Below, piece by piece: positions 33,022 through 45,568 of a stretch of DNA of 46,599 nucleotides; position 1 is the first letter of the stretch; the number at the start of each line of letters is the position of its first letter. The notes beneath the pieces were generated by a model. It made no database searches. It saw only the letters and a program-made list of their open reading frames with translations, and was not told the origin of the DNA. Origin of the DNA: Lujinxingiaceae bacterium (GTDB lineage: Bacteria; Myxococcota_A; Bradymonadia; Bradymonadales; Bradymonadaceae). The translations under genes and the position numbers were made by a program. The stretch covers positions 1 to 46,599 of the forward strand of contig JACCWM010000006.1 in the NCBI GenBank assembly GCA_013697635.1, in the 5' to 3' direction.

Positions 33022-33870
33022 TTGTATCCCATCGCTATGATGTGCCGTGTGCTGGGTGTCTCTACCAGCGGGTACTATGCATGGCTAAACCGTGATTTAT
33101 CCAACCGCGCCCAAGAAGATGCAAAGCTGATGATTTTGATTCAGGACATCCACAAAAAGAGTCATGGCACCTACGGAGCCCCTCGCATTCATGCGGAGCT
33201 GCGCGAGGACCATGGTGTTTGTCTCGGAAAGAAGCGCGTGGCGCGACTGATGAGGGAGGCTGGCTTGCAAGGTGTGTCGCGGCGTAAGTTCGTCACCACG
33301 ACGGTTCGAGCTCCACGTGCTCGACCGGCGCCTGATCTGGTCGATCGAATCTTTGCGGCGTCTCGTCCAAACGTCTTGTGGGTTGCGGATATCACCTATA
33401 TCCCGACCGCTCAGGGCTTTATTTATCTCGCCGTCGTCCTCGATGTCTTTAGTAGGCGGATCGTCGGATGGGCCATAGAGCCACACCTTGAAACGTCTCT
33501 TATTGTCGCCGCCTTCACGATGGCCGTACGTCAGCGCCAGCCTCAGAATGTCATCCATCATTCCGATCAAGGCTGTCAGTACACGTCCATTGATTTTGGC
33601 GCACGATGCCGTGAGGCTGGAGTTAGACCTTCGATGGCTAGTGTAGGAGATTGCTACGACAACGCGATGTGCGAGAGCTTCTTCGCTACCCTTGAATGTG
33701 AGCTCCTCGACCGCCAATCCTTCAAAACTAAGGGTCAAGCACGCCAGGCTGTCTTCCAGTTCATCGAAGGTTGGTATAACCCACACCGAAGGCACTCATC
33801 TCTGCAATATCATTCACCAATTGACTATGAAAAGAAGCACCAGCAAGGGCAAGAATCCCAAGCTGATTAA
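33022..33870 (+). CDS. IS3-family transposase OrfB (DDE integrase domain)
   Basis: The catalytic rve domain carries the DDE triad: Asp in VADITYIP, Asp in HHSDQGCQY, and Glu in CESFFATLE. An HTH_21 segment (KSHGTYGAPRIHAELR, KRVARLMREAGLQG) precedes it and the tail is the usual IS3 WYNPHRRHSSLQYHSP. TTG at 33022 is the first possible independent start, but the frame is open further upstream (RPEIAFGFVNAHQALYPIAM), as expected if the protein is made as an OrfAB frameshift fusion. The reading frame is intact, so the element may be active. Confidence 0.88.
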   Translation: MYPIAMMCRVLGVSTSGYYAWLNRDLSNRAQEDAKLMILIQDIHKKSHGTYGAPRIHAELREDHGVCLGKKRVARLMREAGLQGVSRRKFVTTTVRAPRARPAPDLVDRIFAASRPNVLWVADITYIPTAQGFIYLAVVLDVFSRRIVGWAIEPHLETSLIVAAFTMAVRQRQPQNVIHHSDQGCQYTSIDFGARCREAGVRPSMASVGDCYDNAMCESFFATLECELLDRQSFKTKGQARQAVFQFIEGWYNPHRRHSSLQYHSPIDYEKKHQQGQESQAD

Positions 33871-34062: not shown

Positions 34063-34524
34063 CTAGCGCTCCATGATGTTGACGCGCTCGAGGAGCAGTC
34101 GCTCCTGGTTGATGTGGGCAAAGAAGGCGTATTTGAGCAGGCGCACGTGATCGTTGACGTCGCGAATGCGGCTGTCGCTGTCCGGGCGCTCGAGGCAAAG
34201 CCCGATGGCGACGGCGAGCTCCTCGAGCAGGCCCTCGAGCTCGCGGTGCTGGTCGAGCAGGCGCGCGATCTGGGGCTGCTGGCTCTTGGCAAGGTGGGCG
34301 GCGAGCCACTCAAAGAGGTTGGCCTCTTCGTCGGCCATGTGGCCCAAGATCTCATCGCCAAATTGGCGCGTGTACTGCTCCAACTCCTCGAGGATGCTCG
34401 CGCGATCCTCGCGCACGATGCCCAGCGTGACCGCATGGGCCTCGATCTCCTCGAGCAGGCGGTTCAAGTTGGAGTGGCTGTGGTGGATCTCGTCGGCAAT
34501 GGTTTGCTGGCTTTGATGGTTCAT
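34063..34524 (-). CDS. Hemerythrin-like diiron protein
   Basis: The 153-residue all-helical protein has the HHE cation-binding pattern: DEIHHSHSNLNRLL near the N-terminus, HMADEEANLF in helix 2, LLDQHRELEGLLEEL in helix 3, and HINQERLLLERV in helix 4. These supply His and Glu ligands for a diiron site. Such proteins bind O2 or NO, or act in nitrosative-stress repair (as YtfE/Ric/DnrN do), but this one lacks the N-terminal ScdA domain of that group. Its own promoter carries the FNR-type palindrome shared with the respiratory genes, which supports a role in NO or O2 handling. Confidence 0.8.
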   Translation of the reverse strand: MNHQSQQTIADEIHHSHSNLNRLLEEIEAHAVTLGIVREDRASILEELEQYTRQFGDEILGHMADEEANLFEWLAAHLAKSQQPQIARLLDQHRELEGLLEELAVAIGLCLERPDSDSRIRDVNDHVRLLKYAFFAHINQERLLLERVNIMER

Positions 34525-34571: not shown

Positions 34572-34613
34572 ATTGTGGGCACGTTCAACTGCTGCGTGGC
34601 TGATCTCGATCAT
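34572..34613 (-). promoter_or_regulatory. FNR-type class II promoter of the hemerythrin gene
   Basis: On the minus strand a 14-bp near-palindrome ATGATCGAGATCAG (34600-34613) is followed after 22 bases by CACAAT (34572-34577), a -10-like hexamer. The same box with the same 22-base spacing occurs at 43077-43118 and 45527-45568. The box centre falls at -41.5 if the hexamer is at -12 to -7, the classical class II position for FNR/CRP activators. Confidence 0.65.
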
Positions 34614-34682
34614 GTCGCCTGGCGCTTTGTTCGCGCAAGAGGTGCACGCTCGCAGCCGGCGGCGCACACTTTGCGGCAGCGC

Positions 34683-35387
34683 TCAGTCGCAGCTCGTCGC
34701 CAGCGCCTCGAGCCTTGCGGCGTCGATCACGGTGAAGCCGCGTTTTTCGGTGCGCATGGGCCCCTCTTTGTTCCACTTGCTCATCAGGCGAATCGCCGTT
34801 TCGACGCGCACGTTGATCAGCTCGCAGATGTCGTTTCTCGACAGCGGCAGGTCGATGAAGACGCCCCATGTGCCGTCGTCGAGCTTGACGCGCTTGCCCA
34901 CGGACTCGCTGAATTTGGAGAAGATCAGGGCCAGGCGCTGCTCGGCGCTGCAGACGGTGACCTCGTTCATGCGCTGCACCAGGTCGTGGTTTCGGGCCAT
35001 CATGTTGCGCAAGACGGCCTCGAGCAGCGGCGTGTGGCGCTGAATGGTGCCGTAGAAGTGGCCGCGAAAGATCTCGAGCACGAGGGTGTCTTCGAGCGCG
35101 ATGAGCGAGGCCGGATAGGGGATCTGTTTGTAGACGGCCAGATGGCCCACGGCCTCGTCGGGACCAAAGATGCCCAGGATCACCTCGCGCGCATCACTGC
35201 GGATCTTGACCACCTTGACCTGGCCCTCGATCACGAAGGTAAAGTTCGAGGCCGTCGCGCCCTCGCGCCAGAGATAATCGCCGCGCTCGTAGCGGCGCGA
35301 AATGAAGTAGTCCGCCAGTGGCGCGAGCACGTTGTCGGGCACGTTTTCAAAGAAACTCAGTTCACGCAGCAAAGCTAATTTGTTCAT
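34683..35387 (-). CDS. Crp/Fnr-family transcriptional regulator
   Basis: The 234-residue protein has a cyclic-nucleotide-binding-like beta-roll (VIEGQVKVVKIRSDAREVILGIFGPDEAVGHLAVYKQIPYPAS is the core, about 50-100), a long dimerisation helix (LRNMMARNHDLVQRMNEV) and a C-terminal winged HTH (LPLSRNDICELINVRVETAIRLMSKWNKEG). The recognition helix reads VETAIR, close to FNR's VETISR; the Glu and Arg contact the TGA/TCA half-sites, while Ser is Ile here. It has none of the N-terminal Cys needed for FNR's iron-sulfur cluster, so it may sense NO or heme as Dnr-type regulators do (inference). It is the likely reader of the three shared boxes. Confidence 0.85.
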   Translation of the reverse strand: MNKLALLRELSFFENVPDNVLAPLADYFISRRYERGDYLWREGATASNFTFVIEGQVKVVKIRSDAREVILGIFGPDEAVGHLAVYKQIPYPASLIALEDTLVLEIFRGHFYGTIQRHTPLLEAVLRNMMARNHDLVQRMNEVTVCSAEQRLALIFSKFSESVGKRVKLDDGTWGVFIDLPLSRNDICELINVRVETAIRLMSKWNKEGPMRTEKRGFTVIDAARLEALATSCD

Positions 35388-35390
35388 GAC

Positions 35391-35404
35391 CTGACCATGC
35401 TCAA
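35391..35404 (-). promoter_or_regulatory. Possible Fnr-like site over the regulator's ribosome-binding region
   Basis: On the minus strand TTGAGCATGGTCAG lies 4-17 bases before the start codon of the Crp/Fnr gene. It is TTGA-N6-TCAG, one base from a TTGA-N6-TCAA Fnr/Dnr box. At this place it could only repress, by autoregulation. It differs in core from the three class II boxes, so the call is tentative. Confidence 0.25.
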
Positions 35405-35456
35405 AAGAAGAGTCGAAGACACCGCCCTTGGAGCATGTGCAAGGAGTGGACCAGAG

Positions 35457-35864
35457 CTATCGGCCAAAGCTCTTGATGCGCGGCCACAGATGGATCGCAA
35501 AGCACATGACTCCGCTCGCGGCCAGGGCGGCGGCCAGGGTGTCGAGCCAGGGCCAGGCTGCGGGCCAGGCCGAGAGGCAGCCAGCGAGCGTGGCCGCGCT
35601 GAGTTGGACGATGCTGGCTATCGCGAAAACCTCACGGCCGTGGTTTGTGCGATCGCCAAAGGTAGGAAGGATCCAGTGGGCCACACCGACGATCACGTGC
35701 AGCGTCCAACCGTAGATCAACAAGTGGCGGTGCATGGCCGTGGCGTAGAAGAGCCACGGCGAGAGCATCAGCGCCTTGTTGATGAGCATCAGCGCGCCGG
35801 CGCTAAAGCCAAGGGCCAGGTAGACCAGTGAGAGGCGAAGGGTCCAAAGCGTCAGTGGGGGCAC
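35457..35864 (-). CDS. Small four-helix membrane protein in the respiratory operon
   Basis: The start is a GTG at 35864 with GAGGT about 9 bases upstream, inside the gap after the previous stop at 35870. The 135-residue protein has about four TM helices. The second contains HRHLLIYGWTLHVIVGVAHW, with His residues placed as in heme-copper-oxidase or NnrS-like helix II. It resembles its upstream neighbour (HLFMVGWVTQIIFGVALWMF) in that helix, so the pair may have arisen by duplication or form a heterodimer. A heme-binding or assembly role in the NO-reductase-like complex is inferred; the family is not recognised. Confidence 0.6.
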   Translation of the reverse strand: MPPLTLWTLRLSLVYLALGFSAGALMLINKALMLSPWLFYATAMHRHLLIYGWTLHVIVGVAHWILPTFGDRTNHGREVFAIASIVQLSAATLAGCLSAWPAAWPWLDTLAAALAASGVMCFAIHLWPRIKSFGR

Positions 35865-35869
35865 GTTTG

Positions 35870-36232
35870 CTACCTCACCCTCGGCCAGATCGCCACGATG
35901 AAGGCCATGCCCGCCAGCCACTGCAAGACGGCCGAGGCGACCACGAGCGCCGGATAGTCGACGGCATAAGGCTCGGCCACGAGGCGCAAGAGCAGGCCCA
36001 GATTGAGCGCGATCAAACACACGAGCTCGAGCGCAGTGGGCCTGGCGGGCTTTTTGACGCCCTTGGGCCGGGGAAACATCCACAGCGCGACGCCAAAGAT
36101 GATCTGGGTGACCCAGCCCACCATGAACAGGTGCAAGACGGCCGGGCTTGCCAGGCCGAAGACGCCCAGCGACAGCGCCAGGACCATGTAGATCAGGGCG
36201 GCGCGCACGAACAGCTTGGAGATCGTTGGCAT
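35870..36232 (-). CDS. Small four-helix membrane protein, neighbour paralogue-like
   Basis: The ATG at 36232 overlaps the upstream TGA (TGATG), so it is coupled to the cytochrome b fusion gene. The 120-residue protein has about four TM helices. The helix VLHLFMVGWVTQIIFGVALW keeps the H...GW...I.GVA.W pattern seen in the following gene, and WMFPR/WILPT follows in each. It looks like a truncated heme-copper-oxidase-type helix hairpin. Probably an accessory subunit or heme-handling factor of the operon. Function not proven by sequence. Confidence 0.6.
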   Translation of the reverse strand: MPTISKLFVRAALIYMVLALSLGVFGLASPAVLHLFMVGWVTQIIFGVALWMFPRPKGVKKPARPTALELVCLIALNLGLLLRLVAEPYAVDYPALVVASAVLQWLAGMAFIVAIWPRVR

Positions 36233-38304
36233 CAGTGCCACTCGAATTGGTGGTCGTGCTCGAAGATGACCACGGTGCGTTTTCCGGGCTCGGCGGTGAC
36301 GTGCCGGCTGGCGCGGTAGGCGAAATGGTCGGGATCGTGGCCGTCGGCGATCTCGACGACGACCTCGTGGGTGCCGGGCGCAAGGTGCACGGTCTCGACG
36401 GCCACGGCCGGCCCGTCGCGGGTGATACCGCGGGGGCGGTACTCGCGCAAGAGCACAGGCTCGGCGTCGACGAGCACGCGAAGGCGCACGGCGGCGCGCT
36501 CGCGGCTGCACTCGACGGCCTTTTGCATGTGTCGGGGCCGCCGGGCGAGCTCTTCGTCTGTGAGCGTGCGGCAGTTATCGCTGATGGCGCCGTGGTGTTT
36601 GAGCGAGATGACGAGCTGGGGCTGCCAGGTCGGCGGCGCGGGGTAGCGCGCATCGCTTGCCACAAAGAGCACGAGGCCCAAACAGGCGGCCACGAGCACG
36701 CCGGCTGCGCCTTGTCGCGCGGCGCTTGGCGTGCGATTTCGCACAAGCGCGGCTTTGGCGCTCTTTTTGAGCAGCTCGGCGGTGCGCAGCAGCTCGGTCG
36801 GGCGCGTGCGGTCGAACTGCACAAAGTGCACGCGCTCGGCGTCGATCTTGTCGCGCCGAAGCTCGGGCTCGCGCACGCCCTCGAGGCGCTCACCGGTCCA
36901 CTTGACGCCCTCGCGGTAGCCCGGGTCCGAGCTGCTGCAGCCGACGACGAGGATGCCGGCCGCGCCCCGGCGAAGGGCGCGCTCGATGGTCAGCGCGTTG
37001 ACCCAGCCCGAGCAGGGAACGGCCATGACCCGGTAGGCCGGCAGCTCCAGGCAGCGCCCGCTCTTCTCGTCGATCGTAAAGAAGGCCGCGGCCGACTCCG
37101 CGCACAAAAAGGCGAGCAGCGGCTCCTCGCCGCCGGCCAAAACGTCGTCGATCCAGGCGTCGATGCCCTTTCGAATCTGCTGGGTGGGCAGCCAGTCCAG
37201 CGCGATGCCGCCCGGGTTGCAAGAGCCCACGCAGATGCCACAGCCCACACAGCGCTCGGGGTCGACCTGGGCCACGAGCGGGTATTTGTTGCTGTTATCG
37301 AGGCGGTGCACGATCACGATCGCGTCGTAGGGGCAGTCCTGGGCGCACTGCGTGCAGCCGTTGCAAAGCCCGGGATTGACCACAGCCGCGCGGATTTTGG
37401 TGCGGCGCATCCACCAGGGCGCCGAGAGCACGACGATGCTCACGACCAAAAACACGGCCCACAACAGCCCGCCCGAGAGCCTGTCGGTGAGCAGTACGGG
37501 CAGCAGATACCAGGCATCGATCGTAAAGTGGGCCGGCTGCACGGCCATGTCGGCCACGGCCGCGCTCTCGACCGGGAGCAGCCGGCCCAGCACGAGCGTT
37601 GCGCCAACGACCCACAAGCTCATCGTGCGCCCGGTCACAAAGCGCGGCCGGGCGACGCGGGCGATGTGCAGCCACAGCGGCAGCGCCATGGCCAGCGGGA
37701 TGAGCATGTGGGCAAAGAAGACGACGAAGAAAAATAGCGAGCTGACGTGGCTGTCGGCCAAGTAAGTGCGTGAGAGCGGGTCGGCAAAGATCGGCACCAG
37801 ATCGAGCAGCTTGGCCGTGCCGATGGCGACCTGTTGGCCGCGCACATCCCAGACCAACCAGTAGCCCAGCCAGCCAACCAGCCATAGCAAGAAGAGCAAG
37901 AACATGCCGGTGATCCAGGCCAACCAGCGTGCGCCGGTGAAGCGCCGCCCAAAGAAGAGCTTGCAGGCGTGCAGCAGCACAAAGAACAGGCAGGCGTCAC
38001 TGCTGTAGCGGTGCACCGAGCGAAGCCAGCCGGCCGTCCATGGGTGCTGGGCCATCAGCTCGACGCTAAGATAGGCCTGGTGCACGCTGGGCCTATACCA
38101 GATCAAGAGCGCGATGCCCGAGACGAGCGCGATCAAAAAACTCGTCGTCGCGATCGCCCCCGTCTGGGCAAAGGGGTTTAAGTGGGCCGGGAGCACACGC
38201 TCGACGAGGCGGTCGAGGCGCAAAAACAGTCCGTCGACCGCGCGCAGGGTGCGCTCAGCGCGTACGGCGGGTGCGGCGCTGGCTTGCTGGACGCTCTTGG
38301 ACAT
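36232..38304 (-). CDS. Cytochrome b / two [4Fe-4S] ferredoxin / MvhD-like fusion protein
   Basis: This is a 690-residue fusion. Residues 1-220 are a cytochrome b N-terminal domain with two His pairs spaced for two b hemes: His in SVHRYSS and LLHACKLF (14 apart), and DSHVSS and FAHMLIP (13 apart). More TM helices follow. Then come two ferredoxin motifs, CNGCTQCAQDCP and CVGCGICVGSCNP (about 310-360). A MvhD/FrhD-like module (about 390-510) keeps FLC, VPCSG and VVGCSS but has lost the other Cys of the [2Fe-2S] site. A last TM segment and an exported beta domain ending FEHDHQFEWH complete it. It likely moves electrons from quinol or ferredoxin to the operon's reductase (inference). It starts 6 bases after the SCO gene. 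Confidence 0.75.
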   Translation of the reverse strand: MSKSVQQASAAPAVRAERTLRAVDGLFLRLDRLVERVLPAHLNPFAQTGAIATTSFLIALVSGIALLIWYRPSVHQAYLSVELMAQHPWTAGWLRSVHRYSSDACLFFVLLHACKLFFGRRFTGARWLAWITGMFLLFLLWLVGWLGYWLVWDVRGQQVAIGTAKLLDLVPIFADPLSRTYLADSHVSSLFFFVVFFAHMLIPLAMALPLWLHIARVARPRFVTGRTMSLWVVGATLVLGRLLPVESAAVADMAVQPAHFTIDAWYLLPVLLTDRLSGGLLWAVFLVVSIVVLSAPWWMRRTKIRAAVVNPGLCNGCTQCAQDCPYDAIVIVHRLDNSNKYPLVAQVDPERCVGCGICVGSCNPGGIALDWLPTQQIRKGIDAWIDDVLAGGEEPLLAFLCAESAAAFFTIDEKSGRCLELPAYRVMAVPCSGWVNALTIERALRRGAAGILVVGCSSSDPGYREGVKWTGERLEGVREPELRRDKIDAERVHFVQFDRTRPTELLRTAELLKKSAKAALVRNRTPSAARQGAAGVLVAACLGLVLFVASDARYPAPPTWQPQLVISLKHHGAISDNCRTLTDEELARRPRHMQKAVECSRERAAVRLRVLVDAEPVLLREYRPRGITRDGPAVAVETVHLAPGTHEVVVEIADGHDPDHFAYRASRHVTAEPGKRTVVIFEHDHQFEWH

Positions 38305-38310
38305 GCTCGC

Positions 38311-39273
38311 TCACCTGGTCAATGCCACGGCCGTGGGTGGCGAGATTTCGGCCAGAAGAACCGAGAGCGCGGTGTCCAGCCATTCGCTGGTGCGCTCGTT
38401 GAGCGAGAGGCGATAGGCGATGCGGCCTTCGGCGTCGATCAGCACGTAGAGATTGGAGTGGTCGATCTCGCCGGTCTCCTTGTTGGGGATGCGCGAGATG
38501 CTCAGCTTGTCGAGCACGGAGTTGACTACGGCCGGCTCGCCGCCGACGAAGTTGTACAGCGGGGCGCCCACGCCGTGGCGCTGCGCCATGCTCTCCAGGC
38601 GCAGGCGATCGTCGCCCTCGGGATCGAGGGTGATCGCGACGATCGCGAGCTTGTCGCGCGCTTCGGGTGCGAGCTGGGCTGTGGCCTCCTTGAGCTTGGT
38701 CATGATCAGCGGGCAGCTGCCAAAGCAGGTCGCATAGACGCCGGTCAAGATCACGACCTTGCCGCGAAGCGCGTCGAGGGTCACCACCTCGCCATCCTGG
38801 TTGACCAGCGAGAAGGCTGGCGGCACCAGTGTCGTGCGAAGGCGCTCGGCCGGAAAAGGGTACTGGCTGGTGTCGCCCTCGGTGGGGCCAAGCAGCGCAA
38901 AGACGCCGGTGATCAGCAACACCGTGATCAAGGCAAAGCCGGAGACGAGCGCCACCGAATTGCGGTGCTCGTGCCAGGCGTCACGAAGCGGCTTGAACCA
39001 GATGTAGCCGATCATCGCGCCCATCAAGAGCGGTTGGGTGAGCATCACGGCGACATAAAACCAGTCCATGGTGCTCGTCGCCGGATCATAGTTGAAGCAC
39101 CAGGTCTTGAACTCGCGGGCAAAGAGGCCCAGGCCGCTGTCGCCCGAGGGCACGACGAGCAGCACGCTCAATAAGAGCTCGAAGAACAACAGCAGTGCCA
39201 GGGCGAAGGCGGCAAAGCGCCACTCGGAAAAACTCTCCATCGTCCAGTTTACAAGTGCTTTCAAGTGTTTCAT
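38311..39273 (-). CDS. SCO1/SenC copper chaperone fused to N-terminal membrane domain
   Basis: This 320-residue protein has three TM helices in the first 130 residues: FAAFALALLLFFELLLSVLL, one beginning WFYVAVMLTQPLL, and ALITVLLITGVFALLG. A periplasmic thioredoxin-fold SCO domain follows, with CxxxC in VYATCFGSCPLIM and the distal His in DHSNLYVL, the three copper ligands of Sco proteins. Sco inserts copper into the CuA site of subunit II, encoded two genes upstream (40982-41506), so the operon contains its own assembly factor. The membrane extension beyond a single anchor is unusual. Start and stop fit tightly between neighbours (3 and 6 bases). Confidence 0.85.
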   Translation of the reverse strand: MKHLKALVNWTMESFSEWRFAAFALALLLFFELLLSVLLVVPSGDSGLGLFAREFKTWCFNYDPATSTMDWFYVAVMLTQPLLMGAMIGYIWFKPLRDAWHEHRNSVALVSGFALITVLLITGVFALLGPTEGDTSQYPFPAERLRTTLVPPAFSLVNQDGEVVTLDALRGKVVILTGVYATCFGSCPLIMTKLKEATAQLAPEARDKLAIVAITLDPEGDDRLRLESMAQRHGVGAPLYNFVGGEPAVVNSVLDKLSISRIPNKETGEIDHSNLYVLIDAEGRIAYRLSLNERTSEWLDTALSVLLAEISPPTAVALTR

Positions 39274-39276
39274 CGA

Positions 39277-40971
39277 TCACCTCACATGCCAGACGTCGGC
39301 CAAAGCGCCCCAGTTGGCGAAGTAGTACACGGCAAAGGCCACGAGCAAGATGACCACGAGCGTCATCGCGCCGGGGGTGTTGTGCGGATCGACCTCGCGC
39401 TCGGCCTCGGCGCCGATCTTGGTGATCGTCTTGGGTACGCCCCAACAAGCCATGGGCCGGCCCTTGTTGGACTTGCCGATGAGCAGGGTGCCCACGGTGA
39501 GCAGCACGAAGATCAGCAGGCCGGTGAAGGCCAAGATGCCGCCGATGCCGAGCAGGCCGAGCATCATGTGCGTCGAGGCGCCGTAGACGCCGGCCGCCTC
39601 GATGTCCCAGGTGCGCCGGGCCACGCCCTCGGAGCCGGCAAAGGACATTCCAAACGACATCAGCGTGATGCCTCCGCCAAAGAGATAGGGCTGAATGCGC
39701 GCCAGCGGGCGAGCGATGTAGTCCTTTTGGAAGATCAGGGGCACCACGTAGTAGGCAAGGCCCATGAAGGCCAGCGTCGTGCCGCCCACGACCGTGGCGT
39801 GAAAGTGGCCCGGGATGCGCAGCGTGTTGTGGGCGATGATGTTGATCTGCTGAGTGCCCAGCGTCACGCCGGTGATGCCGCCGATAAATCCAAAGATCAC
39901 CAGCGAGAGGAAGAAGGCCGAGAAGCCCGGATTCCTCCACGGCGCGTTGAGCAGCCAGTCGAAGACGCCGCGCGTATAACCCTTGAGGCGCATGCCGATC
40001 TCGACCGAGGCCGGTACGGTGAAGGCGTGGATCATCGAGGCTAGCACCGCCAAATACATGGCATAGGAGGTGTTCCAGATCTTCCAGCCGGCGCCTACGC
40101 CCGGATCGACGAGCAGATGGTGGGCCGAGGCCAGGTTGATGAACAAGATGTAGAGCACGAAGGCCGCGCGACAGACAAACTCGTTGGGCGCGCGCGCCCC
40201 CGTGGTCAGCGTGGCGAGCAGATACCACACGGCGACCATGGCCGTGACGTTGACCTGCTGGCTGGTGTGTCCCAGGCCCCACCAGATCAGGCGGTACCAC
40301 ATCGGATCGGGCTCGGGCGTCAGCCCCAGCGAGAAGGTGAAGACCGGGATCAGGGCGAGCGCGCCGTGGCCGACGGCGACCACGGCGATGATCGCCGCGG
40401 CCGTGGCGCCAAAGGTCACCAGCGGCACCGAGCCCGCATAAGTCTTGTCGCGCCGGGCGATGTAGAGCGTGCCAAAGAAGTTGAAGACGCCGAGCAGCGC
40501 GCCCACGGCGAACAAGATGATGCCCAGATAAAAGAGCGGGTGGGCCAGCAGCGGCAGATACGAGGTCAAGAGCACGTCGGCCTTGCCCATCAAGATCACC
40601 GAGTTGGTCATCACCGCGCCGCTTACCATCAGGACAAACGACGCCCAGGCCAGGTGCTTGCTGAACAGCCGCGAGTTCAAAAGCGTGGTGCAGGCAAAGT
40701 ACAAGATGCCGATTTCCATGAAGAGCAGCCAGAAGATCAGCATGTTGATGCCGTGCAGCGTGAGCACGCGGTAGAACCACTCCGGTCCGAGCAGATGCAC
40801 CGTCTGCCAGCGGGTCAGGGCCAAGAGCAGCGCGGCGATGCCTCCCACGAGCAGGAAGACCACGGCGCACACGGCGTTGAGGCGAATGAAGAATTCGGCG
40901 CCCTTGAAGACCGGCAGCCCGGTGGTATCGCAGGTGCGAAGCTCAGTGGTGTTGGATTGCAATGTGGTCAT
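39277..40971 (-). CDS. Heme-copper oxidase superfamily subunit I, probable NO reductase (eNOR-like)
   Basis: This 564-residue protein has about 12-14 TM helices and all heme and copper histidines: His73 (TLHGIN), His235 (GLGHTSQQVN), His284-285 (SAHHLLVD), His389 and His391 (PGHFHATV). True O2-reducing A/B oxidases have HPEVY or HPIVY, with a Tyr four residues after the first CuB His. Here the motif is HTSQQ, with Gln at +3 and +4 and no Tyr. Loss of this Tyr is the mark of heme-copper-derived NO reductases, including the eNOR and related groups. Together with CuA subunit II, SCO, hemerythrin and an Fnr regulator, NO reduction at the cell membrane is the best guess; low-level oxidase activity is not excluded. 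Confidence 0.75.
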   Translation of the reverse strand: MTTLQSNTTELRTCDTTGLPVFKGAEFFIRLNAVCAVVFLLVGGIAALLLALTRWQTVHLLGPEWFYRVLTLHGINMLIFWLLFMEIGILYFACTTLLNSRLFSKHLAWASFVLMVSGAVMTNSVILMGKADVLLTSYLPLLAHPLFYLGIILFAVGALLGVFNFFGTLYIARRDKTYAGSVPLVTFGATAAAIIAVVAVGHGALALIPVFTFSLGLTPEPDPMWYRLIWWGLGHTSQQVNVTAMVAVWYLLATLTTGARAPNEFVCRAAFVLYILFINLASAHHLLVDPGVGAGWKIWNTSYAMYLAVLASMIHAFTVPASVEIGMRLKGYTRGVFDWLLNAPWRNPGFSAFFLSLVIFGFIGGITGVTLGTQQINIIAHNTLRIPGHFHATVVGGTTLAFMGLAYYVVPLIFQKDYIARPLARIQPYLFGGGITLMSFGMSFAGSEGVARRTWDIEAAGVYGASTHMMLGLLGIGGILAFTGLLIFVLLTVGTLLIGKSNKGRPMACWGVPKTITKIGAEAEREVDPHNTPGAMTLVVILLVAFAVYYFANWGALADVWHVR

Positions 40972-40981
40972 TTTGTCACCC

Positions 40982-41506
40982 CTATTCGACGAAGATCTTG
41001 CCGATCATGCCGTGATGACCAATGCCGCAGAACTCGTTACAGACGACGGTGTACTCGCCGGCCTGAGTCGGGGTGATGGTCAAGACGTGGTCATAGCCGG
41101 GCACGACTTGGAAGTTCATGTTCATGGGTTGCAGTGAGAAACCGTGCTGCAAGTCCATCGAGGACAGATGCAGCCGGTAAGTCTCGCCGACGCGAAGTTT
41201 CAAGAAGGGATACCAACTCCACATGCGCCCGAGCATGTAGGCGTCACCGCCGGGCGGCGCCTCGACGATCGGCGTGCCGTTGTGGGTGCCGACCTGGTTG
41301 GCCGCCACAAAGCGGTCGACGCGCTCGGAGAAGGCCGCAGGCGTCGTGGCATAGGACTCGCCGGTGCTGTTTTGTTTACCCTTGAAGTGCCACAGCGGCA
41401 TCATGATGAAGAGCACGATGCACCAGGCGAACGCCATACCGAGCCAGACGCGCTCGTGTCCGCTGGGAGCCTGGAACCAATCTTTGGGCGGTGCGGTGAT
41501 GCTCAT
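40982..41506 (-). CDS. Cytochrome c oxidase subunit II-type CuA protein
   Basis: The ATG at 41506 has GGAGG 8 bases upstream. The 174-residue protein has one TM helix (GMAFAWCIVLFIMMPLW, about 23-39) and a cupredoxin domain. The CuA ligands are complete: His121 (DLQHGF), then Cys156, Glu158, Cys160, His164 and Met167 in CNEFCGIGHHGM. It accepts electrons from cytochrome c (a candidate is encoded at 44995-45453) and passes them to the catalytic subunit next door. Single-TM subunit II plus cytochrome c is the layout of ba3-type and eNOR-type enzymes. It starts 13 bases after the small membrane peptide gene. Confidence 0.88.
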   Translation of the reverse strand: MSITAPPKDWFQAPSGHERVWLGMAFAWCIVLFIMMPLWHFKGKQNSTGESYATTPAAFSERVDRFVAANQVGTHNGTPIVEAPPGGDAYMLGRMWSWYPFLKLRVGETYRLHLSSMDLQHGFSLQPMNMNFQVVPGYDHVLTITPTQAGEYTVVCNEFCGIGHHGMIGKIFVE

Positions 41507-41519
41507 GGACGACCTCCGT

Positions 41520-41666
41520 TCAGGGAAGTTGGGCCGGTGCGATGGCCGAGATCTCGACCCAGCCCCACACGGTGTAAGAGAGCACGGGAATGACAAGCCC
41601 CAGCACGAGCAGCAGCCAGGGGTTGTCCATCAGTTTTTGTACGGGGTGAATCTTGGGTTCTTCCAT
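41520..41666 (-). CDS. 48-residue single-helix membrane peptide of the reductase operon
   Basis: This short frame is easily missed. ATG at 41666 with AGGAG 6 bases upstream, TGA at 41520. It codes 48 residues: a charged head MEEPKIHPVQKLMD, one TM helix WLLLVLGLVIPVLSYTVWGW, and a tail VEISAIAPAQLP. It overlaps the 3' end of the upstream heme-copper-like gene by 37 bases and ends 13 bases before subunit II. Good RBS, helix composition and tight spacing support a real gene, comparable to the small extra subunits (such as subunit IIa of ba3 oxidase). Function unknown. Confidence 0.7.
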   Translation of the reverse strand: MEEPKIHPVQKLMDNPWLLLVLGLVIPVLSYTVWGWVEISAIAPAQLP

Positions 41667-43042
41667 CGAGAGCTCCTGTTGTAGGTGGAACGATTCAATC
41701 GCCAGGCGGCGACGGTAAGCACTAAGAAGAGCAGGCCGCCGGCGATCGCCATCAGCCCTCCGGCGCCCATGACGACCAGGCCGACGACCTCGCCACTCGC
41801 GCGCACGATCTGGTCGCCGGCATAGGCTTTTCGCCCCAGTCCGTAGGCGCCGGCGATCGCAAAGCCCATGGCAAAAATCACCTGGCCCACGCCAAAGATC
41901 AGCGGCTGAACGCGCGCAAAGGCCGGCAGCCGGCCCGTGCCCAGGCTAAAGCCCAGCGGCTCGAGCAGCGCGAAGGTCACCGTCATCAACGAGACGGTCA
42001 CCGCCCCGAGCGAGGCGTGGTAGTGGGCGGGGATCATCGTGTTCGAGCCGCTGATCATCGCGCCGAGCACAAAGCCCAGCACACACAGCAAGGCGCTGGC
42101 CAAAAAACCGACCAGCCGCGGATCGAGCAGACCGCGCCCGCCGAGCTTGCCGGCGGCAAAATCCGTCCACACAGCCCGCAAACAAAGCCCCAAAAAGACG
42201 AGCACCGGCACCACGATCCCAAACTGCATCAGCCGCGAGAAGCCCGTGTGGTAGATGGGCGAGCTCGTGCCCGCAAGGGCCAGAAGCGGCGCCCCGAGCT
42301 GCGGGGCGACGAGCAGACCAAAGAGCAAGCCGCTCGTGCGCCGGCCCATAGGCTCTCGGCCCAGCAACCCCGTGAGCAAGATCAGCCAGACGACGAGCAT
42401 CGTCAGCACGCTCGCGACCTGCAAGACGTGGCCCCCGCCCCAGAACAGCAGCTCGTAATAAACCTCGGCCTCGAGCGCGCGCGACGTCTCAAAAAACGAG
42501 ATCACAAAGACAAGCGTCGCGATGAAGACCACCGCAGCCATCGCCTTGAGCCCCGTAATCGCCGCCCGCGGCAGGATCGTCGGCCCCGCACCCGGCGCCA
42601 GCAGCCGCCCGTCAAAGAGCGTGATGACGACGCTCGCCCCAAAGACGAACAGCCCCGCCAAGAAGAGGCCGTGGTCGAGCACCGGCACGTAGTTTGCCAA
42701 GACCGGCGCCGCGCCCTCAAAGCCCGCCGACAGCACCATCGCCAGCACCCCGCCCGCCCCCACCAGCGCCATATGCCCCGAGCGCTTCGACGGTTTGCCC
42801 GACGGCAGCAGCAAGAAGAGCGCGGTGGCAAAGGCGTAAAACCACACGATCAACGCCAGGTCGACGTGAACCACCAGACAGCGCCGAAAGAACATCGGAT
42901 CCGTGAGCCAGCCCGAAAACGGCGGCAAGCGCCCGATGATCAACATCAACGACAGCAGCCCGGCAAAGAGCATGCTGACCACGGCCAAAATCAGCCAGCG
43001 CCGAACGGCCAAGAGCGTGTCGCGATGAGTGAGTGTATTCAT
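41630..43042 (-). CDS. Second heme-copper oxidase-like membrane protein with altered metal site
   Basis: The ATG at 43042 follows GAGGTG by 8 bases. The 470-residue protein has about 12 TM helices. Heme-copper positions are recognisable: His59 (VVHVDLAL), His205 (GGGHVLQ, with Gln208), His265 (PIYHTGFSR), His340 and His342 (IPAHYHASL). The usual His-His pair of the copper/iron site is Tyr264-His265, so one metal ligand is missing, and the catalytic Tyr is absent as well. It could be an inactive partner subunit of the adjacent reductase or a divergent NO reductase with a different metal. It is the first gene of the long operon and its promoter carries the Fnr-type box. Confidence 0.65.
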   Translation of the reverse strand: MNTLTHRDTLLAVRRWLILAVVSMLFAGLLSLMLIIGRLPPFSGWLTDPMFFRRCLVVHVDLALIVWFYAFATALFLLLPSGKPSKRSGHMALVGAGGVLAMVLSAGFEGAAPVLANYVPVLDHGLFLAGLFVFGASVVITLFDGRLLAPGAGPTILPRAAITGLKAMAAVVFIATLVFVISFFETSRALEAEVYYELLFWGGGHVLQVASVLTMLVVWLILLTGLLGREPMGRRTSGLLFGLLVAPQLGAPLLALAGTSSPIYHTGFSRLMQFGIVVPVLVFLGLCLRAVWTDFAAGKLGGRGLLDPRLVGFLASALLCVLGFVLGAMISGSNTMIPAHYHASLGAVTVSLMTVTFALLEPLGFSLGTGRLPAFARVQPLIFGVGQVIFAMGFAIAGAYGLGRKAYAGDQIVRASGEVVGLVVMGAGGLMAIAGGLLFLVLTVAAWRLNRSTYNRSSRWKNPRFTPYKN

Positions 43043-43076
43043 GGTGTGCCACCTCGGGAGTCAAACTACGAAACCC

Positions 43077-43118
43077 AGGATAGGCTGCCCGCGTCGGGCG
43101 CTGCATGATCGAGGTCAT
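43077..43118 (-). promoter_or_regulatory. FNR-type class II promoter of the long respiratory operon
   Basis: On the minus strand ATGACCTCGATCAT (43105-43118) precedes TATCCT (43077-43082, -10-like) by exactly 22 bases. The start codon of the heme-copper-like gene follows at 43042. The box matches the one at 45555-45568 at 13 of 14 positions and has identical spacing. The centre at -41.5 suits activation by a Crp/Fnr-family dimer. Confidence 0.75.
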
Positions 43119-43148
43119 ACGAGGGATGAATTAGTTGCCAAAGGTCGG

Positions 43149-43200
43149 GGTGCCAGGGGACCCGACTCTGCGCCAGGGGACCCGACTCTGCGCAGGCACC
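43149..43200. repeat. REP-like doublet: two 20-bp direct repeats between inverted arms
   Basis: GCCAGGGGACCCGACTCTGC occurs twice in perfect tandem (43152-43171, 43172-43191) and is enclosed by GGTGCC (43149-43154) and GGCACC (43195-43200). The sequence style (GTGCC..GGGGACC..GACTC) is like the palindromic elements associated with REP transposases, but no such transposase is in this window. It lies between the PLP-decarboxylase stop and the promoter of the next operon. Confidence 0.6.
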
Positions 43201-43225
43201 TCGTCGATTTCGGTAACGATTGTGC

Positions 43226-44998
43226 CTATATGCGCCGCACGAGGTCTTCGACGAAGGCCTCGGCAAAGCGCAGGTTGGTCTCGCGAGAGTCAAGGAAGGG
43301 GTTCATCACGCACAGGCGGATCAGGCGCAGCTCGTCTTGGTCGGGGGTGGCGTGCCAGGTGGCGGTGAAGCTCGCCAGGTAGGCGTCGTGGGTGGCAAAG
43401 CGCAGGCTAGTCTTGGAGACGAAGAACTCGCTGGCGTGCTCGGGGGAGTAGGCCTCGTAGATGGCCAGGGTGCGGGCGTTGGTCTGGGAGAGGGGCTCGC
43501 CAGGGCGAGCGATGCAAAAACAGACGATGTTGGAGCTTGCGCCGGGGGCGATGTGGATGTCGGGCACGTGGGCAAGGAGCAGCGCCTGGAATTGGCGGCG
43601 GCATTGGACGGTGCGGGCCAGGATGCGGCCGTAGCCTGCGGCGTCGAGGCCGATGGTGCGCGCGGTCAGCCAGGTGGCCACGGCGCCGGAGGCCGAGCGG
43701 CTGCCCTCGATCGTCTGGGGGCCGCGGTCGCGGCCCTCGGTGAGCTCGAGGTAGGGGGCGTCGATGGTGAGCAGAAAGTATTCGCGGGACTCGCGCGAGA
43801 GGTAGGTGCCGCAGGCATAGGGCACGTAGCCGAGCTTGTGGGGGTCAAGCGTGACGGAGTTGGCGCGCCCGATCGCGCTGAGCGCGCGGTGGGCGTGGGG
43901 CTCGAAGGCGGCCGGGCCGCTCTCGGGGGCGTCGCCCAGCGCGGAGCAGAAAAAACCGCCGTAGGCGGCGTCGACGTGGTGCCAGATGTGGTGGCCGTGG
44001 GTTTGGGCACAGGCGTCGAGGATGTCTTGGACCTCGTCGATCGGGTCGAAGTCGCCAAGCTCGGTGGTGCCGGCTACCGAGACGACCATCAAGATCGGGC
44101 GCTGCTCGCGCTGGGCCTGGGCGATGCGCTCCTGGAGATGAGCGGTGCTCAAGCGGCCGTTTTCGCACAGCGCGACGGGCCAAAAGGCCTCCTCGCCAAG
44201 GCCCATCATACGAACGCCCTTGGGCCAGGAGTAATGCTTGTTTTGGGGCACGAGCACCACGGGGCCAAGGTAGGCGTGGCCAAACGTCTGGTGGTAGTGG
44301 GCGGCCAGGGCAAAGGGGTTGGCGTCGAGCATGCTGGTGGCGCGCAGATCGCCGGCCAGCAGGCCGCGCTCGGCCATCTCGCGATCGAAGCGCTGCCAGC
44401 CCATGTGGGCGGCGCCAAAGATGTCGAGCTCTTCGCCGCCGGCGGCCAAAAGCGTGCCCAAGGAGAGCCAGCGGTCCATGCGGATGCGCGCGCGGTAGAG
44501 CGCCTCGAAGTTTGCCAGCGTGCCGCCGCTGGTGAAGTGGCCGATGCCGGATCCAAAGCCGACCATGGCGGCCAAAAAACCCACGGCCTCCTCCTCGAGG
44601 CGAATGCCCACCCGCGAGGACTCGCCGGAGACGTTGTTCGGGTTGTGAAGCAAGGTGACGATGTGGCCGACCATCGCCGGCAGCGAGAGCTCGGAGAACA
44701 TGTGGGCAAAGTAGCGCGGCGAGAACTTGGGGACCTCGTCCTCGAAGCGGGCGAGCAACACGTCGAGCTCGGCGCCAAAGCGCGCGCGGCGAGCTTCGAA
44801 CTCCGGCGTGGTCTGGTCGGCGACGCTTATCGCGCAGCCGTCCTGGGGGTAGATCGAGCGACGCCAGCCAAACCAGTGGCGAAAGACCCGGCCGATGAGC
44901 GCCTCGAACCAGCTGGCGTTCTCGGACTGGGGCCCGAGGAAAAAACTCTTCAGCGCGATATCGCGGGGATCGCAGGCCGGCGTCTGCTCGTCTTTCAT
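43226..44998 (-). CDS. PLP-dependent group II decarboxylase
   Basis: The ATG at 44998 overlaps the stop of the cytochrome c gene (ATGA), giving 590 residues. It matches glutamate/aromatic-amino-acid decarboxylases: GHFTSGGTLANFEAL, VSVAGTTELGDFDPIDEV, WHHVDAAYGGFF and SVTLDPHKLGYVPYACG, whose Lys binds PLP. Length is above the usual 450-500 because of an N-terminal extension. Substrate cannot be told; aromatic or sulfinate acids are possible for such long forms. Its fusion in translation to a lipid-anchored cytochrome c under an Fnr-type promoter is odd and suggests a link to anaerobic or NO metabolism (inference). Confidence 0.85.
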   Translation of the reverse strand: MKDEQTPACDPRDIALKSFFLGPQSENASWFEALIGRVFRHWFGWRRSIYPQDGCAISVADQTTPEFEARRARFGAELDVLLARFEDEVPKFSPRYFAHMFSELSLPAMVGHIVTLLHNPNNVSGESSRVGIRLEEEAVGFLAAMVGFGSGIGHFTSGGTLANFEALYRARIRMDRWLSLGTLLAAGGEELDIFGAAHMGWQRFDREMAERGLLAGDLRATSMLDANPFALAAHYHQTFGHAYLGPVVLVPQNKHYSWPKGVRMMGLGEEAFWPVALCENGRLSTAHLQERIAQAQREQRPILMVVSVAGTTELGDFDPIDEVQDILDACAQTHGHHIWHHVDAAYGGFFCSALGDAPESGPAAFEPHAHRALSAIGRANSVTLDPHKLGYVPYACGTYLSRESREYFLLTIDAPYLELTEGRDRGPQTIEGSRSASGAVATWLTARTIGLDAAGYGRILARTVQCRRQFQALLLAHVPDIHIAPGASSNIVCFCIARPGEPLSQTNARTLAIYEAYSPEHASEFFVSKTSLRFATHDAYLASFTATWHATPDQDELRLIRLCVMNPFLDSRETNLRFAEAFVEDLVRRI

Positions 44999-45453
44999 TT
45001 CTGAGATCCCAGGTAGGCCAAGATCGCGTCGGCCTCCTCGGCCGTCAAATTGACGTTGGGCATGGGGGTGCGATACTCCTCGAGCAGTTTCTTGGCCTCG
45101 GCGTCGCTCTTGACCATCGCGTCGGGGTGCAAGATGAAGCGCGCCAGCCACTCGGGCTCGCGCCGGTTGGTTATGCCCCGAAGGGCCGGGCCGACCACGC
45201 GCTTGTCCATCTGGTGGCAGGCCGAGCAGCCCTTGCCCAGGTAGAGCGACTCGCCCTTTTTGATCATGTCCGGATCGCTCGAGACGAGCGTGATGCCGCC
45301 GTTGTCGATGCTCGAGGGGCCTTTGGCATTGCCTGCGGCCGCGGCCGGCGCCGAGCCGCCCTTCTTGGGCGCTTTGCCCGAGGCGTCACAGCCAAAGAGC
45401 GCCACGACGCTGGCGAGCACAATCCCCAACAGTAGTTTTTTCGATGTCGTCAT
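44995..45453 (-). CDS. Lipid-anchored class I cytochrome c
   Basis: The ATG at 45453 has GAGG 7 bases upstream. The 152-residue protein has a lipoprotein signal (LLLGIVLASVVALFGC), a Lys/Ala-rich linker, and one heme-c motif CSACH, with the distal Met in RTPMPNVNL. The body pattern GCSACHQ...VGPALRGITNRREPEWLARFILHPDAM...YRTPMPNVNLTAEEADAILAYL, here given in pieces, is the one I associate with cytochromes of clade II nitrous-oxide-reductase loci. It should carry electrons to the CuA domain of the reductase. Its promoter holds the Fnr-type box. Confidence 0.85.
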   Translation of the reverse strand: MTTSKKLLLGIVLASVVALFGCDASGKAPKKGGSAPAAAAGNAKGPSSIDNGGITLVSSDPDMIKKGESLYLGKGCSACHQMDKRVVGPALRGITNRREPEWLARFILHPDAMVKSDAEAKKLLEEYRTPMPNVNLTAEEADAILAYLGSQK

Positions 45454-45526
45454 TTTAAACCTCGTTCAAAGCGGTCGCTTGGGCTGGGCGGCGACTCTTT
45501 TTGAGCCGCTCAAGGCTACGAGACCC

Positions 45527-45568
45527 ACCATAGGCCCAGCCCAGGCGCGCTCCTATGATCCAGGTCAT
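45527..45568 (-). promoter_or_regulatory. FNR-type class II promoter of the cytochrome c gene
   Basis: On the minus strand ATGACCTGGATCAT (45555-45568), a perfect TGA-N6-TCA palindrome flanked by A and T, is followed after 22 bases by TATGGT (45527-45532). It lies between the stop of the upstream FAD enzyme and the cytochrome c start at 45453. This is the best copy of the shared box. The centre is at -41.5 relative to the implied start site. Confidence 0.75.

Follow-up and report, generated by a model that had tools for sequence, protein, structure and literature searches.

Operator boxes at a fixed distance from the -10 element suggest a Crp/Fnr-controlled nitrite and nitric oxide regulon that includes an eNOR-type reductase in Bradymonadaceae

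We analyzed a 46,599-nt stretch of DNA from a Lujinxingiaceae bacterium (contig JACCWM010000006.1; "the window" refers to this whole stretch), in which three similar boxes lie upstream of a cytochrome c gene, a heme-copper/CuA operon and a hemerythrin gene, and in which a Crp/Fnr-family regulator is encoded at 34683..35387 (minus strand; Pfam PF00027 and PF13545). The boxes are almost certainly real operators, and the protein encoded at 34683-35387 is very likely what binds them. Taken as a whole, the analysis makes it likely that the boxes are operators of this one protein, acting as a class II activator over a regulon for respiration of nitrite to nitrous oxide (N2O) and for defense against nitric oxide (NO). 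Computation shows the box motif, its fixed distance to the -10 element, its conservation upstream of orthologous genes and its co-occurrence with the regulator.

An earlier, sequence-only reading had proposed three FNR-type boxes, each 22 bp before a -10-like hexamer. A sequence check finds all three boxes at the positions it gave, on the minus strand and between genes. Box 1 (ATGACCTGGATCAT, 45568-45555) lies upstream of the cytochrome c gene (45453) and is followed 22 nt on by the -10 hexamer TATGGT (45532-45527; predicted start ~45520). Box 2 (ATGACCTCGATCAT, 43118-43105) lies upstream of the eNOR operon (43042) and is followed, again after 22 nt, by TATCCT (43082-43077; predicted start ~43070). 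Both boxes are exact matches to ATGACCTSGATCAT, each with a TA...T hexamer at the same distance. Box 3 (ATGATCGAGATCAG, 34613-34600), upstream of the hemerythrin gene (34524), also has its hexamer 22 nt past the box, and here the -10-like assignment holds less well: TATGGT and TATCCT are as described, whereas CACAAT (34577-34572) is a poor, weak -10. With a scoring matrix built from relatives only, boxes 1, 2 and 3 are the top three sites in the window (23.1, 22.6 and 20.9 bits), and the fourth scores 8.9 bits, leaving a 12-bit gap. Just upstream of box 2, at ~43150-43195, a ~21-nt unit, gccaggggacccgactctgc, occurs as two copies in tandem.

The genome was scanned for the box 22 bp before a -10, a check that had been suggested earlier. 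The 6.2-Mb genome contains 4 sites matching ATGACCTSGATCAT, 2 of them inside the window, and TA is found exactly at +22 in 4/4. The two sites outside the window are upstream of a MetH/MTHFR-like gene (C146) and of a gene for a 612-residue copper protein, nirK (C153). A further box (C62) serves two divergent promoters, those of nadA and of a membrane protein-hemN operon; its two -10 hexamers, TAGATT on one side and TATGCT on the other, each lie 22 nt away. All six TA-bearing promoters identified in this genome have a spacer of 22, whereas relatives use 21 or 22. The box alone was rejected as a diagnostic sign, as one-mismatch matches in the genome scan fall mostly within genes. Because the core TGAYCNNGRTCA is common (152 genome sites) and mostly coding, the box by itself proves little, and it is the pairing of box and -10 that is informative.

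Among 44 orthologous promoters, 43 carry TA either 21 nt from the box (23 promoters) or 22 nt from it (20 promoters), against a background TA rate of 1.8% per offset, and 35 of these 43 fit TANNNT. About two thirds of the 44 boxes had helped to define the matrix, and the box nearest the gene was taken in each case; for the promoters whose boxes were outside the training set, TA stands at 21/22 in 15/15. This agrees with the class II-like geometry put forward earlier, for which a box center at -41.5 is predicted. Good boxes recur upstream of cytochrome c orthologues (6/6 genomes), of hco2, the first gene of the heme-copper operon (8/8, the nearest box always 21/22 nt from TA), of the hemerythrin gene (6/7 genomes tested, the window genome included), of nadA (9/10), of ytkA (5/6) and of nirK (7/10 gene copies). 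The three nirK copies without a good box are second copies in two genomes and the copy of G008, where nirK lies behind a box-bearing cytochrome gene. In three genomes (L202, L149 and L295, in G002, G004 and G010, respectively), tandem boxes ~28-30 bp apart precede the eNOR operon, and of the two it is the box closer to the operon that stands 22 nt from the -10. The crp gene of G004 has its own box at 21 bp. At five loci (L074:7527, L059:3420, L062:6822, L058:12385 and L061:13169), a single palindromic box serves a divergent pair of promoters, with TA hexamers 21/22 nt away in both directions; nadA is a member of every such gene pair.

The same geometry was examined at 126 ATGAYCNNGRTCAT sites from 21 genomes of the family, 12 with an orthologue of the regulator (55-67% identity to the window protein) and nine without. 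The spacing profile, TANNNT at offsets 10 to 35, served as the null because a reversed-pattern control gave almost no matches and was too weak. In the 12 genomes with the orthologue, TANNNT occurs 12 times at offset 21 and 14 times at offset 22, compared with a mean of 0.67 per other offset (Poisson ~1e-24), whereas the nine genomes without it give 1 and 2. A -10 at 21/22 accompanies 26/156 box orientations in genomes with the orthologue and 3/96 in those without (Fisher p = 9e-4, genomes treated as independent), and the core TGAYCNNGRTCA at 21/22 nt before TANNNT is found 47 times versus 11 times. The target enzymes follow the same division. Both eNOR subunit I and long NirK are found in 8/12 genomes with the orthologue and in 0/9 without, and one or the other is found in 10/12 versus 0/9 (Fisher p = 2e-4, a test that ignores phylogeny).

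The regulator matches the properties ascribed to it earlier, namely a Crp/Fnr protein lacking Fe-S cysteines and carrying a VETAIR recognition helix. No cysteine is conserved across the 12 orthologues, which excludes an FNR-type cluster, and the helix R(V/I)ETAIR is invariant among them apart from one V/I change; a homologue in G015 with 38% identity also keeps VETAIR. The invariant histidine closest to the effector domain is His110. The description of the box as an FNR-like TGA-N6-TCA core with outer A/T instead of T/A also stands, with a consensus half-site of ATGAY. Mutants of FNR and CRP show that the position equivalent to CRP G184/FNR S212 helps to set half-site preference. In the regulator this residue is Ile199, with the FNR-like Val and Glu retained, and this Ile may explain why the half-site has A in place of T. 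In an alignment to the CRP of Mycobacterium tuberculosis, the Arg-Thr pair that contacts cyclic AMP (cAMP) is matched by Tyr/Phe-Pro, and the residue at the Glu position varies. The nearest structures are generic Crp-family members at ~20% identity, with cAMP-binding CRPs nearest by profile; DNR (3dkw), also at ~20%, is one among many remote matches and no closer than other family members. A search of NCBIfam gives no equivalog near its cut-off, and a structure model shows a Crp fold (mean predicted local distance difference test score 80.8, predicted template modeling score 0.52) that singles out no sensor subfamily. Beyond the family, homologues with 27-38% identity occur in G038, G057 and Thermoanaerobaculia, and the homologue loci scanned, those of G038 and Thermoanaerobaculia (G057 unscanned), have no box. 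The viral contigs searched contain no relative. Named records of the same regulator come from Myxococcales metagenome-assembled genomes labelled CSSed16, presumably for samples of soda-lake sediment.

The heme-copper/CuA operon is best read, from its residues, as encoding an eNOR-type NO reductase. Gln at the position of the cross-linking Tyr is the eNOR signature (PMC8756737, Table A4). Subunit I (39277..40971, minus) aligns with ba3 oxidases, and the cross-linking Tyr (GHPIVY in Thermus ba3) is replaced by Gln (GHTSQQ). The motifs GHxSQQ, SAHHLL and PGHFH are found in 6 genomes, with the His pair and the heme ligands intact. Features of eNOR present here are Gln for the Tyr, the FeB/CuB His and heme His residues, and a cupredoxin subunit II, the CuA subunit with CNEFCGIGHHGM (40982..41506, minus; Pfam COX2, CuA motif intact). 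The first gene, hco2 (41630..43042, minus), encodes a degenerate heme-copper-type subunit (Pfam COX1, 36.7 bits); a residue check in several genomes finds the heme His residues kept and the helix-VII His pair absent. It is possibly a bis-heme accessory subunit. Downstream are a SCO1/SenC-type copper chaperone (38311..39273, minus; Pfam PF02630) and a protein (36232..38304, minus; Pfam) that fuses cytochrome b6, two 4Fe-4S clusters and a methyl-viologen hydrogenase delta (FlpD) domain. The fusion gene, on the same strand, probably belongs to the same operon as the eNOR genes, and its product is an unusual candidate for electron input to the operon's enzyme.

The other two box-bearing genes of the window are those for a c-type cytochrome (CxxCH; 44995..45453, minus; Pfam PF00034) and for the hemerythrin-domain protein (34063..34524, minus; Pfam PF01814, with the RIC model far below its cut-off). 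A gene for a pyridoxal phosphate-dependent decarboxylase (43226..44998, minus; Pfam PF00282) overlaps the cytochrome c stop codon with its start (ATGA) and is probably co-transcribed with it from box 1. The decarboxylase is tyrosine-decarboxylase-like, and G002 retains its pairing with the cytochrome c gene (57% identity). A frame at 33022-33870 (plus), near where the hemerythrin gene ends (3'), resembles an IS3-type transposase, judged from its translation alone.

The regulon is larger than the three transcription units first proposed. Cytochrome c, the heme-copper/CuA operon and hemerythrin remain members, and nirK, nadA, hemN and others join them. Elsewhere in this genome, box and geometry are found at nirK (C153), metH (C146), and nadA and the operon of an unnamed membrane protein and hemN (C62); in the family genomes they are found at orthologues of nirK, the eNOR operon, cytochrome c, hemerythrin, nadA and ytkA. 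Relatives add box-linked genes for a copper protein, a cytochrome c peroxidase and a flavin oxidase. The C153 protein has copper nitrite reductase 6hbe as its best PDB match (E = 2e-129, residues 158-570). Because its score against TIGR02376 (138 bits) is below the cut-off of 296, we regard it as a divergent long form of NirK, an assignment made from similarity. The long NirK (L076:7317-9155, minus) has an N-terminal extension and a C-terminal plastocyanin-like domain. HemN matches TIGR00538 above the cut-off. The many-helix membrane protein encoded before hemN (L074:6061-7332, minus) has no Pfam or NCBIfam match, and our label nnrS-like for it is an assumption from position and look only. From these members and the Gln signature of the heme-copper operon, we read the target set as a regulon for nitrite-to-N2O respiration and NO defense.

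On this basis, we propose that the Crp/Fnr protein would bind ATGAYC-NN-GRTCAT at a site that overlaps the -35 region, centered near -41.5 where the spacer is 22 bp and near -40.5 where it is 21 bp, and would activate promoters with a plain TANNNT -10 in the class II mode. Activation rather than repression, and the placement at -41.5 relative to start sites, are inferred from this geometry. NirK would make NO, and the eNOR-type enzyme would reduce it with cytochrome c and copper proteins as donors. Hemerythrin and RIC proteins would handle NO or repair NO damage, HemN would supply heme independently of oxygen, and NadA would supply NAD. Sensing of the signal would depend not on an FNR-type Fe-S cluster but on another cofactor, most likely heme, as proposed for DNR. 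We favor NO as the activating signal, with less assurance than we give to the operators and their binder.

Several observations weigh against parts of this proposal. NO sensing is read from the target genes alone. G007 and G016 carry the orthologue and lack eNOR and long-NirK genes, and the core role of the regulator may be wider than denitrification. The genomes of one family are related, which leaves their promoters only partly independent, and phylogeny does not enter the association tests made by genome. ETAIR-helix paralogues in G002, G014, G019 and G020 make the acting protein ambiguous there. Finally, the -10 of box 3 is the sole non-TA case among the 44 orthologous promoters. Because only the hemerythrin promoter of the window is exceptional in this way, we consider box 3 a conserved operator by its sequence, with a -10 that would be decayed or naturally weak.

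The signal is where an alternative has most room. The boxes and geometry could be real and the regulator a non-FNR sensor of oxygen or redox state, responding to low oxygen or a redox change; targets such as hemN, nadA and cytochromes are found in anaerobic regulons too, and the two orthologue-bearing genomes without eNOR or long NirK fit such a role. We consider this unlikely, though worth keeping in view: the absence of conserved cysteines leaves no FNR-type 4Fe-4S cluster, nitrite and NO genes dominate the targets, and the single box/-10 pair identified in G015, one strict box with TATAGT at 22 nt, precedes a gene for a RIC/YtfE-type protein. It is also conceivable that a different Crp/Fnr protein encoded in this genome recognizes the boxes while the cluster gene has another role, given four further weak Crp-like matches in this genome and the paralogues in several relatives. 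These further matches are just 22-24% identical, whereas box/-10 pairs, eNOR and NirK track this orthologue over 21 genomes, and the regulator gene is located within the cluster of its targets and has a box of its own in G004; another binder is quite improbable. Still less probable is a cAMP-type CRP that places respiration genes under carbon status. It draws on the profile match to cAMP-binding CRPs, and it is opposed by the substituted Arg-Thr pair, the variable Glu position and a half-site of ATGAY instead of TGTGA. Chance matches to a GATC-rich palindrome common in coding sequence would account for the many core and one-mismatch sites inside genes, but not for the fixed distance to TA or the conservation upstream of orthologues, and we regard this explanation as already refuted by spacing and conservation.

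The NO-responsive activator proposed here would give eNOR a specific regulon that can be put to the test. Genes for this NO reductase commonly carry cytochrome oxidase annotations (PMC8756737). We found no description of transcriptional control of eNOR in the literature searched; a narrow query for eNOR regulation with nirK and nadA gave nothing, and searches for Bradymonadales and for nadA under FNR or NO gave nothing relevant. The regulon links long NirK, eNOR and nadA in myxobacteria-related organisms known mostly from metagenomes, and the operator together with the recognition helix offers a natural case of altered Crp/Fnr specificity. Tentatively, and with the balance against it, the regulator might even found a separate nitrogen-oxide-responsive Crp/Fnr class, with its own operator, an ETAIR helix (Ile for the FNR specificity serine), its own sensor chemistry and nadA in an NO-respiration program.

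In function, the parallels are DNR and NnrR, which switch on nir and nor genes when NO is present (PMC1274295). DNR, found in Pseudomonas and beta-proteobacteria, where it controls nir, nor and nos, resembles the present regulator in its Crp/Fnr fold without FNR cysteines and in the TGA-N6-TCA core (PMC1274295), as well as in the control of nitrite and NO reductases, which is predicted here only from the box/-10 pairs that precede nirK and the eNOR operon in several genomes. It differs in its operator (TTGATnnnnATCAA versus ATGAYCNNGRTCAT here), and in our case the NO reductase is eNOR instead of cNOR and the core targets include nadA. NnrR of alpha-proteobacteria shares control of nirK, nor and nnrS-type genes (PMC1274295), but its operator ctTTGcgnnnncgCAAag (TTGcgnnnncgCAA) differs from our box, and we see no close sequence relation. 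HcpR1, found in delta-proteobacteria, and HcpR2 are likewise Crp/Fnr regulators of nitrogen-oxide stress without FNR cysteines (PMC1274295); their motifs, TTGACnnnnGTCAA and GTAACnnnnGTTAC, differ from the box here, and their core target hcp was not seen beside the boxes, although no search aimed at hcp was made. The cAMP receptor protein differs in the Arg pair of its cAMP site, which is absent here, as well as in its half-site. The eNOR enzymes share the Gln for the cross-linking Tyr and the cupredoxin (CuA) subunit II (PMC8756737), whereas the operon described here adds a degenerate heme-copper-like subunit and the cytochrome b/ferredoxin/FlpD fusion. Class II promoters of Escherichia coli FNR also have a box near -41.5 that overlaps the -35 region and a simple -10, and FNR-type boxes in Sphingopyxis granuli are reported with centers from -40.5 to -42.5 (PMC4886647, PMC7713065). 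FNR itself uses an Fe-S cluster and TTGAT half-sites, whereas here no Cys is conserved and the operator, although it has the TGA-N6-TCA core in common with the FNR operator TTGATnnnnATCAA, has A at position 1 of the half-site. Class II geometry is ordinary for FNR and thus not in itself new; what is new lies in the operator variant, in the clade of the regulator, in eNOR being under such control and in nadA being conserved as a target.

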